The notes under the pieces were generated by a model. The model did not search any database. It worked only from the letters and a program-made list of their open reading frames with translations, and was not told the origin of the DNA. Below are positions 50,395 through 56,931 of a stretch of 64,000 nucleotides of DNA, piece after piece. Source of the DNA: Ereboglobus sp. PH5-10 (GTDB lineage: Bacteria > Verrucomicrobiota > Verrucomicrobiia > Opitutales > Opitutaceae); assembly GCF_029504735.1 (NCBI RefSeq), contig NZ_JAQFIP010000001.1, positions 186,001 to 250,000 on the forward strand, read 5' to 3'. Both the position numbers and the translations under genes were made by a program. Within the stretch, counting starts at the first letter, position 1. Every line of letters starts with the position of its first letter.

Positions 50395-50922
50395 TCAGCG
50401 GAGGATTTCCACCGAGGAGACTTTTAGCATGAGGGTGAGCTGGGAGGGATTGGCCACGTTGGAGGGCTGCATTGTGAGCTGGTCGAGGCCAATGTAAGGG
50501 GAGCGTTTTTTCAGCTCCTCGTAAAACTTCACCACTGTGGCGTAGTCCGTGTTGCGAGCCGTTATCTGGGCGCTGTTCACCGAGAATTGGGCGGTTTTTT
50601 CCGTGCGCGCATCACTAATGGTTTTGTTGGTGATGCCGACGGCGGTGGCAATGGTGTCGAGCTCGGCTTGCAGGCGCACGGTGTCGTAGGTGCGCGAAGG
50701 GTCGAGCTGGCGAATGGCGGCGTTGGCGCGGGCCTGGATCGATTCGCGCGCGTCGAGTGTCATTTGCTGCACTTTGAGCGTGAGGCTCGTGCTTTTGAAA
50801 TCGCGGACGAAGGTCGTGGTGCGTCCGATGGCGGCGGTCAGCCACCAGAGCGCGGCGACGAGGACGAGTCCGACGAGGAGGACTTTTTCGCGTGTTTGGC
50901 GGCTCAGGAAAAAGGCTTTCAT
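50395..50922 (-). CDS. gspM: Type II secretion GspM/PilO-like protein
   Basis: A 175-residue inner-membrane protein. It has a short cytoplasmic N-terminus, one transmembrane helix (VLLVGLVLVAALWWLTAAIG), a coiled coil (LTLKVQQMTLDARESIQARA) and a ferredoxin-like periplasmic domain (TDYATVVKFYEELKKRSPYI, LTLMLKVSSVEIL). This is the layout of GspM/PilO, which pairs with GspL in the assembly platform. Sequence identity is low, so the assignment rests on layout and on its place directly after the gspL-like gene, overlapping it by four bases. Confidence 0.72.
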   Translation of the reverse strand: MKAFFLSRQTREKVLLVGLVLVAALWWLTAAIGRTTTFVRDFKSTSLTLKVQQMTLDARESIQARANAAIRQLDPSRTYDTVRLQAELDTIATAVGITNKTISDARTEKTAQFSVNSAQITARNTDYATVVKFYEELKKRSPYIGLDQLTMQPSNVANPSQLTLMLKVSSVEILR

Positions 50923-52511
50923 TGGTTGGGTTCCTCCTCCGCGGTTTCATTGGCGGGTTGCGGCGCGGGTTGGGGAATGTTGATTTTTTGGCCAACGTGG
51001 AGTCGGCGCGGGTCGGCGAGGCCGGGGTTGGCGGCAATGATGTCGCGCGGGGAAACGCCGGCTTGCCTGGCGATGCGCGCGATGGTGTCGCCTGTGACAA
51101 TGGTGTGCTCGGTGGTTAGCGGCGCGGATTGTCCGTTGGCGGACGGGGCGGCGTCGGGGGGAGGCGTTTCGGATTGGCCGGGGGTGAGCTGTTGCTGGAT
51201 TTGGTCGTGGATGCTGGGTGCGGCGGATTGCGAAGCGCCGGGCTGGGGCGCGGCGTTCTCGGCGGCGTTTTCGTTGGCGGCGTCTGTTTTTGGGGTTGCG
51301 GTGTTCTTTGGTTGCGGCGGGGGAATGTCCTCGGCGGCGATCACGGTGCCGGGCTTGAAGGTGATGAGCATCGTGAAGGTGGTGGAACCGTCGCGCGTGG
51401 CGGGGTTGTTGATGTCGAGTTTTTCGATGGCGGGCAGGGAAACGAGGGAGGTGCGGAAGGAGTTGAAGTCGGCGGCGCGGTTGGTGCGGGCCTGGATTTC
51501 AATGCTGTTGAGGCTGCGTGTGATGACGCGGGTGAAAACGATCGTGTCGGGGAGCGCGGGGCGGAGCAGGTCGATCATCTCAAAGGGAAGCAGGCGCTTG
51601 GTGGAAAGGTCCTCGATGCGGGTGGCGAGGGTGTTGGCGCGGTCGATTTCGGCGACGTGGGGAGCCTGCTCCTTTACTTGGTAGATTCGTTTTTCCTGCA
51701 AAAATTTTCCGCCCTTGAGCGCGATGTCGATGAGGGCGCAAAGGGCGAGGAGGCTGAGGCAGCCCAGGAAGGCGCGCCAGAGAAGGAGGTCGCGGCGGCG
51801 GGAGGCGCGGCGGGCGACGAGCTCGGCCTTGTCGCGAACGTCGAGCATGTCGAGTTGCGCCGTGGTGAAGGTGGTGGTGCTTGGCGTGGTGCGGGTGTTT
51901 TTGGCGGGCGGGGTGGCGAAGACGAGGGCGTTGTCGGCGCGGGCGGGCGGCGGGACGGTGTCGAGCGCGGGGTATTCGTATTCGTGGAGATGGATGGTGC
52001 CGGGCGTGGCGCGCAGGAGCTCGTTGCGGAGGGCGGCGCGCGCGGCGTCCCGGTCCGTCTCGGAGAGGGGCGGCTTGTCATCGTCGGGCTCGGGATATGC
52101 GCGCGAAATAACGAGGGCGGGCACGCCGCTGCTGTCGGCCCAGTGGATTGCGGTAAGGCTGTCGGGAGTGGAGAGGAGCGCGGTGGTGCCGGGGCCGGCG
52201 GCGGGGTTCAGAAGAGTGGCGAAGGCGGGGAGCACGGCATCGGCGGCGGGCCAGGTTTCGACACTGGCCTGGCTGAAGCGCTTGCGGTAGGCGGCGTGGA
52301 TGAGGGCGTGCCGGGCACCGGGGCGCCAATGGTAGCCGTAATACATCTGCGCGATGGGAAAGGGCGCGAGGGTTTCGAGAGCGAGTTCGACCTGGGTGGA
52401 AAGCTCCTCCGGCGTTTGGTCCTCGGACACGGGAATGGCGCGCACAAAAAACTGCGTGTCGGGCAGGAGCACGACATTGGGCGGGGGAGCTTTTAGAAAC
52501 TTGAGGGCCAT
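50919..52511 (-). CDS. gspL: GspL-like assembly protein with C-terminal LysM domain
   Basis: A 530-residue protein. The first 225 residues resemble the cytoplasmic actin-like region of GspL/PilM (VVLLPDTQFFVRAIPVSEDQ, LAPFPIAQMYYGYHWRPGAR). One transmembrane helix (LLLWRAFLGCLSLLALCALI) leads to a periplasmic coiled coil and a ferredoxin-like domain (PDTIVFTRVITRSLNSIEIQ). Then, unusually, comes a Pro/Ala/Gln-rich linker and a LysM module near residues 463-508 (EHTIVTGDTIARIARQAGVS, DPRRLHVGQKINIP). LysM binds peptidoglycan, so this GspL may anchor the secretion platform to the wall. Typical GspL proteins lack it. Operon order supports the assignment. Confidence 0.75.
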   Translation of the reverse strand: MALKFLKAPPPNVVLLPDTQFFVRAIPVSEDQTPEELSTQVELALETLAPFPIAQMYYGYHWRPGARHALIHAAYRKRFSQASVETWPAADAVLPAFATLLNPAAGPGTTALLSTPDSLTAIHWADSSGVPALVISRAYPEPDDDKPPLSETDRDAARAALRNELLRATPGTIHLHEYEYPALDTVPPPARADNALVFATPPAKNTRTTPSTTTFTTAQLDMLDVRDKAELVARRASRRRDLLLWRAFLGCLSLLALCALIDIALKGGKFLQEKRIYQVKEQAPHVAEIDRANTLATRIEDLSTKRLLPFEMIDLLRPALPDTIVFTRVITRSLNSIEIQARTNRAADFNSFRTSLVSLPAIEKLDINNPATRDGSTTFTMLITFKPGTVIAAEDIPPPQPKNTATPKTDAANENAAENAAPQPGASQSAAPSIHDQIQQQLTPGQSETPPPDAAPSANGQSAPLTTEHTIVTGDTIARIARQAGVSPRDIIAANPGLADPRRLHVGQKINIPQPAPQPANETAEEEPNQ

Positions 52512-52611
52512 GTAAGGGTGCGGAATGTGGATTTTGGAATGCGGAATGGCGCAATCCTCAGCGCGTGATGTTAGTTGTGAAAGTGTTTTGCCGTGTTGGC
52601 TAATAGAAAAT

Positions 52612-53817
52612 TCATTCGGTTTCGGTTTCGCCGATGACGGGCGCGGGCGGGGGGACGAGGTCGTTTTCGCGGATTTCGAGAAAGGTGTATGGGTAGTTCA
52701 GGTTTTTTTGCGTGGTGCCGGCGGAGGCGTTGGCCCGGGTGGTGTTGGCGTTGTTAGACGTGCGCGAGGTGCCTTGGTTGCCGGGCGTGGTGTTATTGTT
52801 TGAGTTTGTGCCGCTGGTGGAGGTGGAGGCGGTGTTTTGCTGCGCCCACGCGACGGGGAGTTTGGCGCCGCCCGTGCCGGGCATTGAAACGAGGGCGTTG
52901 AGGCGGTAGTTGGCCGGGCCTTGGCGGATGGTGATGATGACGCGAAGCGCGCTAATCGTGACGCCGAGCTGGCTGGCGGGAGTGCCGGCGCCGAGGAGGG
53001 TGTCGACCTCGTCCTTGCTGGCAAAATAGCCGCCGGTGCCGGCGAGGGTGCGGCCATCCTCGCCCTGGAGGAAGTTGGAGAGTTTTTCGTCGAGCGAGGT
53101 GTCGAGGTTGCCGAGCGCGCCGAGGATGTCGGGAGGGGCGGCGTTGATGTTGGGAGTTTGGAAATCGTAGAGGGAAAAGGTTTGGACGAAGCGATGCCAG
53201 AGTTCGTTGGGGCGGCCGGTTTCGTCGTAAAAAATATCGCGCGCGAATTCGATGGAGGCGAGTTCGTCGAACGAGCGGAGCGTGCGCGCGGGCGGCGTGA
53301 ACGGAAGGTCGCCGGTGTCGTAGTCCTCGGGCAGGGGCGCGCCCGCCGTGGCGGGGATGTAATCGGCGCGCATCCAACCGAGGAGCGCGTCGGTGAGTTT
53401 GGCCGCGGTGGTTTCGTCGAGCCCCCAGTAGGTGAAGAGCGAGGTGAGCGTGGTGGCGTTGACGTTGGGCAGGGAAAGTTTGCCGCTCTCATCCTCGAAT
53501 GCGACCTCGACGGTGTAATCGGGGTTGATGGGTTCGTAGCCGGCAAAGCCGAGCGGATCGGCCCAGCCCTCGGCGGGGCTGTGGAGCGAGCCGAGCGCGG
53601 CGCGAAAATCCTCAAGGACGGCGAGCGTGGTCTCCATCGCGGAATACGCCTCGACACGCATGTTCGCCGCGTCGTTTGCGCGAACCTCGACGGCAAGGTC
53701 GTTGAACGCCTTCTCCATGAAGAGGGCGAGCGCGATCGAGGCGAAGGCCATCATCACAAGAACAACAATGATGATCGAAGCGCGGCGGGAGCGGAGTTTG
53801 CGCGGGTGAAATTTCAT
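52612..53817 (-). CDS. gspK: Type II secretion minor pseudopilin GspK-like
   Basis: A 401-residue protein with the GspK layout: a basic leader, then a hydrophobic helix starting without the usual GFTLIE (RRASIIIVVLVMMAFASIAL), and a long globular domain. The domain contains ESGKLSLPNVNATTLTSLFT, LLGWMRADYIPATAGAPLPE and PNINAAPPDILGALGNLD, a helix-hairpin-helix-like segment typical of GspK. The C-terminal 60 residues are Asn/Thr/Ser-rich and low in complexity. GspK caps the pseudopilus with GspI and GspJ. A repeat-filled gap (53818-54015) separates it from gspJ, and 100 bases separate it from gspL. Confidence 0.85.
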   Translation of the reverse strand: MKFHPRKLRSRRASIIIVVLVMMAFASIALALFMEKAFNDLAVEVRANDAANMRVEAYSAMETTLAVLEDFRAALGSLHSPAEGWADPLGFAGYEPINPDYTVEVAFEDESGKLSLPNVNATTLTSLFTYWGLDETTAAKLTDALLGWMRADYIPATAGAPLPEDYDTGDLPFTPPARTLRSFDELASIEFARDIFYDETGRPNELWHRFVQTFSLYDFQTPNINAAPPDILGALGNLDTSLDEKLSNFLQGEDGRTLAGTGGYFASKDEVDTLLGAGTPASQLGVTISALRVIITIRQGPANYRLNALVSMPGTGGAKLPVAWAQQNTASTSTSGTNSNNNTTPGNQGTSRTSNNANTTRANASAGTTQKNLNYPYTFLEIRENDLVPPPAPVIGETETE

Positions 53818-53823
53818 GGCGTG

Positions 53824-54015
53824 CTTCGATAAATTCCAAATTCCGAAATCCCAAAATCCAAAAGACGAGGCCACGCCTCGTCCGGCGGCCTGGAGACCGC
53901 CGCTCCGTTCGCAAGCGACACATCGACTGTGGACGACGCTTGAGAGCCGGAGGGTGTGCTTTGGAATTTGGCCATTGGGTTTGGGTTGTTCGTTGGAATT
54001 TGAATATTGGAATTT
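53824..54015. repeat. ATTCCAAATTCC-bordered palindromic element between gspJ and gspK
   Basis: The gap starts with AAATTCCAAATTCCGAAATC and ends with the complementary style GGAATTTGAATATTGGAATT. Inside lie two GC hairpins, GACGAGGC-CAC-GCCTCGTC (53864-53882) and GGCGGCCTGGAGACCGCCG. Related AT motifs recur at 52520-52548, 54700-54724 and 55970-55998, all within the gsp operon. Confidence 0.75.
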
Positions 54016-54798
54016 TTACAGCATCGGGAGTCCTTGCGGAGGCGCGCCGGGGATGTCGATTACGGTTTCGAGGGTGCGACCCGAGTAGGTGAAGGTGAGG
54101 CGAATGCGCTGCGGGAGGACGCCCTGATTGGAGTTGTCCTTGCGAAGCACGGTTTCGTTTTTCCACGTCTTGAGATCAATGTCGTAATAGTCGTAGGTCA
54201 TGCCGGTGACGAGCGGCGTGATGACGGTTTCGCGTGGCGCGTCGATGTCGAAGTTGGTTTCGAGACGCGAATGCCAGAGGAGGATAAGCCCCTCGCCCTC
54301 GCGGCAGGCGAGCGAGCACACAACGCCGGGAAGCGCGCGGTCGGGCCACACGCAGAGGCGGCTGCCGTTGGGAAGCTCGTAGGTGAGGTAGAGGTCGGAG
54401 TTGCCGGTCTGGTCGCGCACCTCCTGAATCGTCACGGGTGCGGCGGCGGTGCTTGAGGTGCTGGATTGCGCGCCCGCGGTGCCGCCGGTGGGAGGAAGCG
54501 CGGCGGAAGCGAGCTCGCTTTCGAGAAAACGGGTGACGTTGCGCGAGTGCAGGTCGAACAGGCGCACATCGGAGTTGCGCCCCCAGAGTTCGCCCATCGA
54601 AAAGATAAGCGTGGTGGAGGCGACAATCACCATCGACACAATCGCCACCGCGATGAGGACTTCGATCAGTGTGAACCCGCGTCTGCGACGAGGGAAATTC
54701 CAAATTCCAGATTCCAAATTCCAAGGCGTATGCGCGCGCGATTCGCAGGGGCGCGCCTTGCGCGCGCCACTACGGGGATTGTTTGTCGGCGTGTTCAT
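54016..54798 (-). CDS. gspJ: Type II secretion minor pseudopilin GspJ-like
   Basis: A 260-residue prepilin. The cleavage and methylation site is RRRRGFTLIEVLIAVAIVSM, followed by a helix and a beta domain (LWGRNSDVRLFDLHSRNVTR, TYELPNGSRLCVWPDRALPG). Its leader is very long, about 40 residues from the ATG at 54798. The leader is encoded largely by repeat DNA: GSGARKAR-type residues from a GC palindrome and WNLESGIWNF from an ATTCCAAATTCC repeat. A TTG within the repeat would give a short leader (LESGIWNFPRRRR). The ATG overlaps the gspI stop by four bases, which favours the long form. Confidence 0.85.
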   Translation of the reverse strand: MNTPTNNPRSGARKARPCESRAHTPWNLESGIWNFPRRRRGFTLIEVLIAVAIVSMVIVASTTLIFSMGELWGRNSDVRLFDLHSRNVTRFLESELASAALPPTGGTAGAQSSTSSTAAAPVTIQEVRDQTGNSDLYLTYELPNGSRLCVWPDRALPGVVCSLACREGEGLILLWHSRLETNFDIDAPRETVITPLVTGMTYDYYDIDLKTWKNETVLRKDNSNQGVLPQRIRLTFTYSGRTLETVIDIPGAPPQGLPML

Positions 54799-55436
54799 CG
54801 TCTGGGCGCGCCTCCTCCGCTGGTGTTTCCGCCGGCGCGGCTTCCTTGTTTGTTGCCACCGCCGCCACTGCCGGACTTGGAGCCGCCGCCGGACGTGGAG
54901 CCGCCGCCACTGCCGCCACTTGAGGAGCTGGAGGAGCCGAATCCGGAAAGGGGCGAGGGCTGTTGGTCTTGGACAATGCGGTCGCGCGCCTCGGCTCGGA
55001 GCGTGGCGGCGTCGGGCGAAAACCCGGAGGTCGTCGACCAGGTGGGCCGGAGCAAACGAAACACCTCGGTGATGGTCTCCTCTTTTTCGTCGGGTGTGTT
55101 TCCGGCGCCCAGCTCGCATGTGAAGGTGACGTGGAAAAGGTTCGCGGTGTTCGTGGCCTCGATGACGGCGGACCATTTCACCTGGCGTCCGGTCGCGCCC
55201 TCGAACGAGTCGCCTTTTTGCGCGGTTTCAAAATCGGCCTCGGCGAGGAGCATGTTGCGCGCGAAACGGAGGTCTAGGTTGCGCTTGGGATTCGCGGCGG
55301 CGGCTTCGTAGGCGTAGAGCACGTTCATGTAGGCGCCGACAAGCATGACGCCCATCATCGCGCAGATCGCGAGCGCGACGAGCACCTCGACAATCGTGAA
55401 CGCGCGGCGGCGGTGGCGCGGCATGCGGCGGTTCAT
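54795..55436 (-). CDS. gspI: Type II secretion minor pseudopilin GspI-like
   Basis: A 213-residue prepilin with a short basic leader (MNRRMPRHRRRA) and the peptidase site RAFTIVEVLVALAICAMMGV. The globular part contains ARNMLLAEADFETAQKGDSF and ANLFHVTFTCELGAGNTPDE, typical of GspI size. The last 55 residues are an unusual Gly/Ser tail (SSSSSSGGSGGGSTSGGGSK). The ATG at 55436 overlaps the gspH stop (ATGA), and the gene overlaps gspJ in the same way, so the three pseudopilins are translationally coupled. Confidence 0.83.
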   Translation of the reverse strand: MNRRMPRHRRRAFTIVEVLVALAICAMMGVMLVGAYMNVLYAYEAAAANPKRNLDLRFARNMLLAEADFETAQKGDSFEGATGRQVKWSAVIEATNTANLFHVTFTCELGAGNTPDEKEETITEVFRLLRPTWSTTSGFSPDAATLRAEARDRIVQDQQPSPLSGFGSSSSSSGGSGGGSTSGGGSKSGSGGGGNKQGSRAGGNTSGGGAPRR

Positions 55437-56041
55437 TGGCCGTCCTCCTTTTGCTCGAGCATTTGCGCGCATGTCCATGGGTCGATGGCGAGCGTGTGCG
55501 CGGTGGTGCCGATGCGGAATTGCGCGCGAAAGGGCGTGCAGGTGCCGTCGCCGTAAAATGTCACATGCGCGATGGTCTGCGTTTCGATGAGTTCGCCGCC
55601 AACGAGGATCGAGCTGGCGCCTTTTTGCGTGGTGAGAAAATCACACGTCACCTCGCCCATGTCCTCGAACGGAAAAAACTCAGCGCCGCCGTTGTCCCAT
55701 GTGGCGGAAAGCCCGGCGGGGGTGTCGGAGCCCTCGCCCGTGACGGCGGGGACGTAGGCGAGGCGGACTTCCCTGCCGCTCATGAGCGCCTGCTTGCGCG
55801 CGGCGGTGACGGCGACCCAAAACACCTCGTCGGGCGTCGCGGGTTTGTCGTTGGTGAGATGCGAGCCGCCGACGATAAGCACGGCCGTCATCATTCCGAT
55901 GAGAGCAAGCGCGAGCAGGATTTCCAAAAGCGTAAACGCCTCATGCCGCCCGCGCCTTCGGCGCGGAGAATTCCAGATTCCAACTCCCAATTTCCAAGGT
56001 GAGCGGGCGCGGAGTGGACGGTTGTGCGTGGACGACCTCAC
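55433..56041 (-). CDS. gspH: Type II secretion pseudopilin GspH-like
   Basis: A prepilin of about 202 residues. The peptidase site and helix are HEAFTLLEILLALALIGMMT. The beta domain follows (VFWVAVTAARKQALMSGREV, HVTFYGDGTCTPFRAQFRIG). The start is uncertain: a GTG at 56041 and a TTG at 56044 both give a leader of about 35 residues. It includes WKLGVGIWNSPRRRRGR, encoded by an ATTCCAAATTCC-type repeat at 55970-55998, as in gspJ. A shorter start inside the repeat is possible. The stop overlaps the gspI ATG. Confidence 0.8.
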   Translation of the reverse strand: MRSSTHNRPLRARSPWKLGVGIWNSPRRRRGRHEAFTLLEILLALALIGMMTAVLIVGGSHLTNDKPATPDEVFWVAVTAARKQALMSGREVRLAYVPAVTGEGSDTPAGLSATWDNGGAEFFPFEDMGEVTCDFLTTQKGASSILVGGELIETQTIAHVTFYGDGTCTPFRAQFRIGTTAHTLAIDPWTCAQMLEQKEDGQ

Positions 56042-56085
56042 CAAGATTGAGCGTGTGCGAGGCGCGGTTGCGAGAGGGGGGGGCG

Positions 56086-56571
56086 TTACTGGCCCGTGGA
56101 AGCGGAGCCTGTGGCCCAGTTGCCAATGTCGTCGGCGGTGCCGCTTTGTTTGTCGGGGCCGTTTGACCAGACGTCGTAGCCGGTTTTGTTGCGAGTGCCG
56201 GGATAATTGTATTGGTAGGCGACGCCCCAGGGGTCGAGAAGGGTGGATTTGTCGCCGTCGAGATAAGGACCGCGCCAGCGCTCGGCCTTGTCGGCGGGAG
56301 CGGTGATGAGCGCCTGAAGTCCCTCGGCGGTTGAGGGGAAATCGCCCATGTGCATGCGGTAGGATTGGAGGGGAACCTTGAGGCTGCTGGAAACAAACAT
56401 CTTGGCCACGTCCTCCTTGGCTCCGCCAAAGATGTTGTCGAAATTGGCGACCGCGAGGCCGATGATCATGCCGGCGATGGCGAGCACAACGAGAATTTCG
56501 AGAAGCGTGAACGCGCGCGCAGTCGTGCGGAACAGGCGGCGGGCGGTGTGGCGGATGAGGGGCTTTTGCAT
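56086..56571 (-). CDS. gspG: Type II secretion major pseudopilin GspG
   Basis: A 161-residue major pseudopilin. The leader MQKPLIRHTARRLFRTTARA precedes the peptidase site AFTLLEILVVLAIAGMIIGL. The GspG domain is conserved: YRMHMGDFPSTAEGLQALIT, RGPYLDGDKSTLLDPWGVAY and NYPGTRNKTGYDVWSNGPDK, with the calcium-binding C-terminal loop SGTADDIGNW. It polymerises into the pseudopilus that drives secretion. First gene of the operon G-H-I-J-K-L-M; gspD, E and F are not in the window. The ATG at 56571 is chosen over an upstream one that adds 28 non-family residues. Confidence 0.93.
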   Translation of the reverse strand: MQKPLIRHTARRLFRTTARAFTLLEILVVLAIAGMIIGLAVANFDNIFGGAKEDVAKMFVSSSLKVPLQSYRMHMGDFPSTAEGLQALITAPADKAERWRGPYLDGDKSTLLDPWGVAYQYNYPGTRNKTGYDVWSNGPDKQSGTADDIGNWATGSASTGQ

Positions 56572-56931
56572 GATGTGTGTGTTTTTGTGAGCGTGTTTGG
56601 TTGGGAATGAAGACGAACGCCCGGCGGGAGGCGTTTCAAAAAATGAGGCGTGCATGTTGTTATGTTGGCGAACGCTTGTCGAGAGCGGGCGCGCGACGGC
56701 TCAACGTCCGCCATTGCGCATCTGGAGACTGCCCGGGTGCAAACAGGCAGATAAAATCGCGCCGGCAACAGGCGAGAGTGACTGAAAACAGCCCTCCCCC
56801 AGCCTTGCGCCCCGCCCCTTCATTGCGCGAATTGGCGATAAGCAAAATTGCCGGACCTTGCCGGTTCACATCAAACCCTTGGCATAACCATCACAATCCC
56901 GTGGCAGCATGCAAAGCAATGTCCCTGCGTT
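56572..56931. other. Non-coding region upstream of gspG
   Basis: A 360-base gap between two minus-strand genes. It should contain the gsp operon promoter and the end of the EEP gene transcript, but I see neither a convincing promoter nor a hairpin terminator. Open frames here have atypical codon use and no recognisable product. Confidence 0.55.

Follow-up and report, generated by a model that had tools for sequence, protein, structure and literature searches.

A GspL-like type II secretion protein with a C-terminal LysM domain in two sister genera of the Opitutaceae

In Ereboglobus sp. PH5-10, the gene between gspK and gspM of a type II secretion cluster encodes a GspL-like protein that continues past its periplasmic domain into a disordered linker and a C-terminal LysM domain, and it is proposed here, as a reading that we consider fairly probable, that the LysM on GspL tethers the assembly platform of the type II machine to the cell wall. 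The window analysed is a stretch of 64,000 nucleotides from the genome of this strain (G000). The preliminary description of the window had placed the gene at 50919-52511; these coordinates stand and are to be read on the minus strand, the plus-strand frame having stops. The gene and the parts of its product are the following:

52511..50919, minus strand: gspL-LysM gene, 530 aa by translation
51831..52511, minus strand: residues 1-227, cytoplasmic actin-like (PilM / cyto-EpsL-like) domain, pLDDT mostly >90; 2ych Z 10.1, 1yf5 Z 8.4, 4pht Z 8.0
51714..51785, minus strand: residues 243-266, single transmembrane helix, hydropathy maximum 2.4 at residue 247, within a long helix (228-305) of the model
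51354..51590, minus strand: residues 308-386, periplasmic ferredoxin-like domain; 5hl8 PulL Z 10.9, 5n7l XcpY Z 10.8, 2w7v EpsL Z 9.6
51117..51341, minus strand: residues 391-465, linker, Pro/Ala-rich by composition and predicted disordered, pLDDT <50 for 402-437 and 439-461
50970..51116, minus strand: residues 466-514, LysM domain; PF01476 E 1.4e-12, pLDDT about 96, 7r1l rmsd 0.7 Å

LysM is the one Pfam domain found in the 530-aa frame (PF01476, residues 469-513), and its profile score of 47.7 bits compares with a curated cut-off of 20.9. An AlphaFold2 model of the protein, computed with 47 sequences as input (mean pLDDT 85.6), gives this part a beta-alpha-alpha-beta fold (strands 466-470 and 509-513, helices 477-484 and 488-494) which matches 7r1l with a Z of 7.5 over 46 residues at 44% identity. 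The 7r1l structure is a LysM solved with a GlcNAc trisaccharide, and the closest solved LysM domains include ones with GlcNAc oligomers; the domain may bind the GlcNAc-containing strands of peptidoglycan. A chance match is ruled out by the E value together with the fold match. Assembly error as the source of the fusion is likewise rejected because the congener G002, whose genome is a single contig, has the same fusion (94% identity), and a third species, G051, carries it as well (70%). The preliminary description, which had reported a clear LysM and named a non-matching predicted fold or an assembly error as the outcomes that would speak against it, is therefore borne out on the domain itself. 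Its linker of about 80 residues proves to be one of 76 (391-466), with 14 Pro and 16 Ala; its pLDDT is about 40, whereas the domains on either side of it are well predicted. Beyond the LysM, the protein runs on for about 16 residues. Since six Lys/Arg lie in the 15 residues before the membrane helix and four in the 15 after it, the positive-inside count indicates that the C terminus is probably periplasmic.

The identification of the gene as GspL of type II secretion, already suggested in the preliminary description, is supported by the predicted folds of the cytoplasmic and periplasmic parts and by the position between gspK and gspM, and not by sequence profiles, because the sequence identities in the structural pairs with PilM, EpsL, PulL and XcpY are just 8-12%. 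For the periplasmic part (307-386), PulL and XcpY rank first over 75-77 residues, whereas for the cytoplasmic part (3-231) PilM ranks above cyto-EpsL. The Pfam GspL models gave no match to the protein at E 0.05 or at E 1, and a PDB profile search with the core alignment as query returned chance matches only. That the cytoplasmic fold fits PilM as well as cyto-EpsL, and that among 47 homologues Pfam finds PilN weakly in 15 (best E 0.00057) and GspL_C in 3 (best E 0.0076), could mean instead that the gene belongs to a different pseudopilus or pilus machine, as a PilM-PilN-like fusion; we regard this as very improbable, given the pseudopilus and platform genes G, H, I, J, K and M in the same cluster, the top ranks of PulL and XcpY, and the presence on another contig of a distinct pilus-like locus that has a secretin, two ATPases and three small genes of its own. 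As a GspL, then, the protein shares with PulL, XcpY and EpsL the gspK-gspM slot and, as far as residue 386, the folds and the order of its domains, and differs from them in the additional linker and LysM and in a sequence too distant for the Pfam GspL cut-offs. A further match of the periplasmic domain (51354-51590), at Z 8.3, is Amuc_1100 of Akkermansia muciniphila (6kny).

The cluster, read from right to left, runs gspG, gspH, gspI, gspJ, gspK, gspL, gspM, and the genes around gspL are these:

56086..56655, minus strand: gspG, major pseudopilin; T2SSG E 6.3e-26, TIGR01710 above cut-off
55433..56044, minus strand: gspH-like pseudopilin; TIGR01708 E 2.9e-6, below cut-off
54795..55478, minus strand: gspI-like pseudopilin; N_methyl E 2.9e-6, TIGR01707 E 3.6e-5, below cut-off
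54016..55176 (listed frame), minus strand: gspJ-like pseudopilin; N_methyl E 2.1e-9 at frame residues 163-187
52612..53874, minus strand: gspK; NF037980 T2SS_GspK E 3.4e-15, below its cut-off, PF21687 at cut-off
50395..50922, minus strand: gspM, assigned by position; no Pfam match at E 0.05

Only gspG lies above its NCBIfam cut-off, gspH, gspI, gspJ and gspK being known from sub-cut-off matches or from the prepilin signal; the true start of gspJ is probably near 54700, at that signal. The start of gspM lies 4 bases inside the end of gspL (ATGA), and both this overlap and the gene order K-L-M are found in five of five LysM carriers. Several further features of the cluster were observed. The gspI-like protein (54795-55478) has a long Gly/Ser-rich tail and gspK (52612-53874) an Asn/Ser/Thr-rich stretch, low-complexity ends that are unusual for pseudopilins. 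Short repeats of the AAATTCCAAATTCCGAAATCC type stand just before gspL, gspK, gspJ and gspH (window 52537-52560, 53831-53862, 54695-54718 and 55968-55991), and a similar stretch is found in two genomes of the sister genus: in G046 it fills the space between gspL and gspM, and in G100 it encodes the end of gspL. A 3-keto-disaccharide hydrolase gene (PF06439, 49264-50379) begins 15 bases after gspM on the same strand and is perhaps cotranscribed.

The remaining parts of the machine (secretin, ATPase, platform F and prepilin peptidase) are all present in the genome. The genes gspD-E-F lie together at G000:C1:402.9-408.5 kb (L277), with GspE at 404 kb, about 160 kb from gspG-M, and the prepilin peptidase (Peptidase_A24) is on another contig, C19. 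We infer that the D-E-F genes are part of the same machine as gspG-M, which is supported by genome G004, where the F, E and D genes adjoin the G-to-M cluster. Contig C18 carries a second secretin locus, which includes two ATPases, and the 7.9 Mb genome G046 has 8 secretin and 19 T2SSE matches, some of them on a small second contig. No other wall anchor was found by the Pfam searches: GspC gave no T2SSC match in this genome, where a diverged GspC could be missed (across eight genomes there is one sub-threshold match), and no peptidoglycan-binding Pfam domain occurs in GspD, GspE or GspF or in the other gsp proteins of the window. A search for GspA through PF01471 led to two places in the genome, with frames of 370 and 313 aa that read like other proteins, one of them resembling an L,D-transpeptidase as judged by eye and not by profile.

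A first genome scan with the single GspL-LysM sequence gave no relatives, and an alignment used as query gave 80. Within the Opitutaceae, 145 of 150 genomes have a match, and one gspL per genome was read in 130 of these. The core is present in all 130; profile position 360 is reached in 126, and contig ends truncate at least two. The search for LysM in verrucomicrobial GspL homologues that the preliminary description had proposed finds the domain in five of the 130 (G000, G002, G051, G077 and G100), that is, in all three Ereboglobus genomes with a gspL and in two of three genomes of the sister genus (G077 and G100, not G046); a fourth Ereboglobus genome, G080, which is 65% complete, has no gspL core. 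Within the gspL genes read, the fusion is thus confined to two sister genera. Most other gspL of the family end within about 20 residues of the core, in agreement with the earlier statement that GspL proteins end at the ferredoxin-like domain, and a few have Pro-rich tails of 26-126 residues without LysM. None of the 130 family loci has a LysM in another frame behind gspL, and in the 80 relatives none lies in the stretches of up to 9 kb read on either side of the gsp clusters besides those of the gspL genes themselves. At the level of the order, 153 of 223 genomes match, and among the matches listed there the 18 frames from outside the family that would have room for a fusion (at least 450 aa) include none with LysM; at the level of the phylum, matches occur in 40 of 288 genomes, of which 3 belong to other orders and have frames of 418-432 aa, and no further LysM occurs among the listed Verrucomicrobiota gspL that were read or had frame room, a survey that leaves out the second match of G181 (frame 466 aa). 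No GspL-LysM fusion was found in the literature covered, which comprised open-licence papers.

A tree of the gspL core with 89 rows places the two genera that bear the LysM as sister groups (97/86), each of them a clade at 100/100. The core of G046 is 83-88% identical to those of its relatives and its linker is kept, with the LysM absent. When aligned as DNA, this gene is without the LysM-coding stretch, but the proximal portion of the linker is still there, as is a residual piece ahead of gspM. In five of the six genomes gspL and gspM overlap by 4 bases, whereas in G046 a gap of 76 bases separates them. Because of the missing stretch, the retained linker, the remnant and the gap, G046 has probably lost its LysM. 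The modules themselves differ: G077 and G100 share 86% identity over residues 1-385 and 37.5% over the LysM. The closest module to the LysM of G100 belongs to a small membrane protein ending in LysM (28/44), and the closest to that of G077 is the third LysM of a multi-LysM lipoprotein-like protein (27/44). In a tree of 40 LysM domains, which has 46 columns and some long branches that were flagged, these placements are supported at 99/95 for G100 and 97/92 for G077. The hypothesis that the five GspL modules form one clade is rejected (AU p 0.005), and the same hypothesis for the G077 and G100 modules alone is not (p 0.075), so that the argument for several origins draws on the full set of five modules and on the placements. 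Repeated gain or exchange of the LysM modules is therefore probable; a possible alternative history is one gain with later exchange of modules. Small proteins ending in LysM, in frames of about 185-230 aa, consist of a hydrophobic segment, a coiled-coil-like stretch, a linker and the terminal LysM, and are encoded at G000:C21:1496-1627 (L008), G046 L368, G051 L356 and G080 L039; such a protein looks like a membrane-to-wall tether and is a possible source of a GspL LysM.

Selective constraint was estimated as dN/dS by Nei-Gojobori counts among G000, G002 and G051, the LysM comprising 47-48 codons. For the pairs G000-G002, G000-G051 and G002-G051, respectively, the values are 0.40, 0.76 and 0.94 for the LysM, 0.42, 0.58 and 0.40 for the linker, 0.18, 0.28 and 0.24 for the cytoplasmic part, and 0.04, 0.58 and 0.52 for the membrane and periplasmic part. 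If the G051 module was exchanged, its dN/dS does not measure selection. Constraint on the LysM is weaker than on most of the core, which is the main evidence against an essential role. LysM values near those of a disordered linker (0.40 against 0.42, 0.76 against 0.58) are what would be expected had the domain merely been added to a tolerant C terminus, where it folds and perhaps binds the wall without benefit and drifts until lost; its loss in G046 fits this course, as do four other GspL with long Pro-rich tails, none of which has a LysM. However, the fold-forming positions of the LysM, the frame and the overlap with gspM are kept in five of five carriers, and a module of this sort arising or being swapped at least twice goes beyond what chance accretion would lead one to expect, so that we consider such neutral accretion unlikely. 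The proposed wall tether has to be weighed against the weak constraint, the loss in G046, where the LysM is dispensable because the linker is kept without it, and the 125 of 130 family genomes that have no LysM. In its favour, the same addition seems, from the sequence comparisons, to have happened more than once, and one related LysM family appears itself to consist of membrane proteins that have a coiled coil and end in LysM.

GspL is an inner-membrane subunit that forms a hexamer in the usual model, and its contacts with GspE and GspM, like wall binding by LysM, are established or proposed for the families concerned. For a tether, we infer peptidoglycan binding, stoichiometry and an anchoring role as follows. 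The cytoplasmic domain would hold the ATPase GspE and the periplasmic ferredoxin-like domain would pair with GspM, and the linker, being flexible, would extend the LysM to the peptidoglycan, where it would bind GlcNAc-containing glycan strands. Avidity would come from the presence of several GspL in each platform (six in the usual model), and the LysM arms would thereby hold the platform in place in the wall, under the secretin, as GspE powers the pseudopilus. The LysM might instead serve for placement and bear no load, bringing the platform to new or denuded wall at the septum or poles or recruiting a hydrolase to open the wall mesh for assembly. LysM domains do occur in other wall proteins encoded by these genomes, and peptidoglycan binding of the GspA/GspB type is thought to help the secretin insert through the wall (PMC9239104), but the cluster contains no hydrolase gene, and we see a role in placement as rather improbable. 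A wider form of the tether proposal, which we put forward tentatively and with less than even confidence, is that GspL acts as a docking site where one wall-binding module can be exchanged for another: in this clade the platform itself would be fixed to peptidoglycan by a stator-like tether at the motor, in a machine with no recognisable GspC, GspA or other anchor, and the LysM would have been replaced more than once from unrelated LysM proteins.

Attachment of type II secretion to peptidoglycan is known from GspA/ExeA, from GspB/OutB and, in Legionella, from the secretin LspD; in these the wall-binding part (PF01471, a polyampholyte tail and SPOR) is on accessory proteins or the secretin, and among the anchors named there none is on GspL (PMC9239104). 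TsaP of type IV pili resembles the present case in that a LysM-type module ties a related secretin machine to the wall, and differs in being a separate protein that acts at the secretin (PMC9239104). The specialized TssL of type VI secretion is alike in architecture and has a peptidoglycan-binding domain at the C terminus of an inner-membrane platform subunit, although the machine is another one, the subunit is unrelated and the module is of the OmpA type where here it is LysM (PMC8253398).

In the open-licence literature searched, we found no wall tie at GspL described, and the fusion suggests that the machine is tied there. Holding of the type II system to the wall is known from accessory proteins and one secretin (PMC9239104); with a LysM on GspL, the anchor would sit on the side of the motor, as it does for the specialized TssL in type VI secretion (PMC8253398). 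Close relatives provide a natural series of gain, swap and loss of a wall module, and the effect of wall anchoring on the assembly platform is thereby open to test by deletion or exchange of the module in a genus that is cultivable and harmless.
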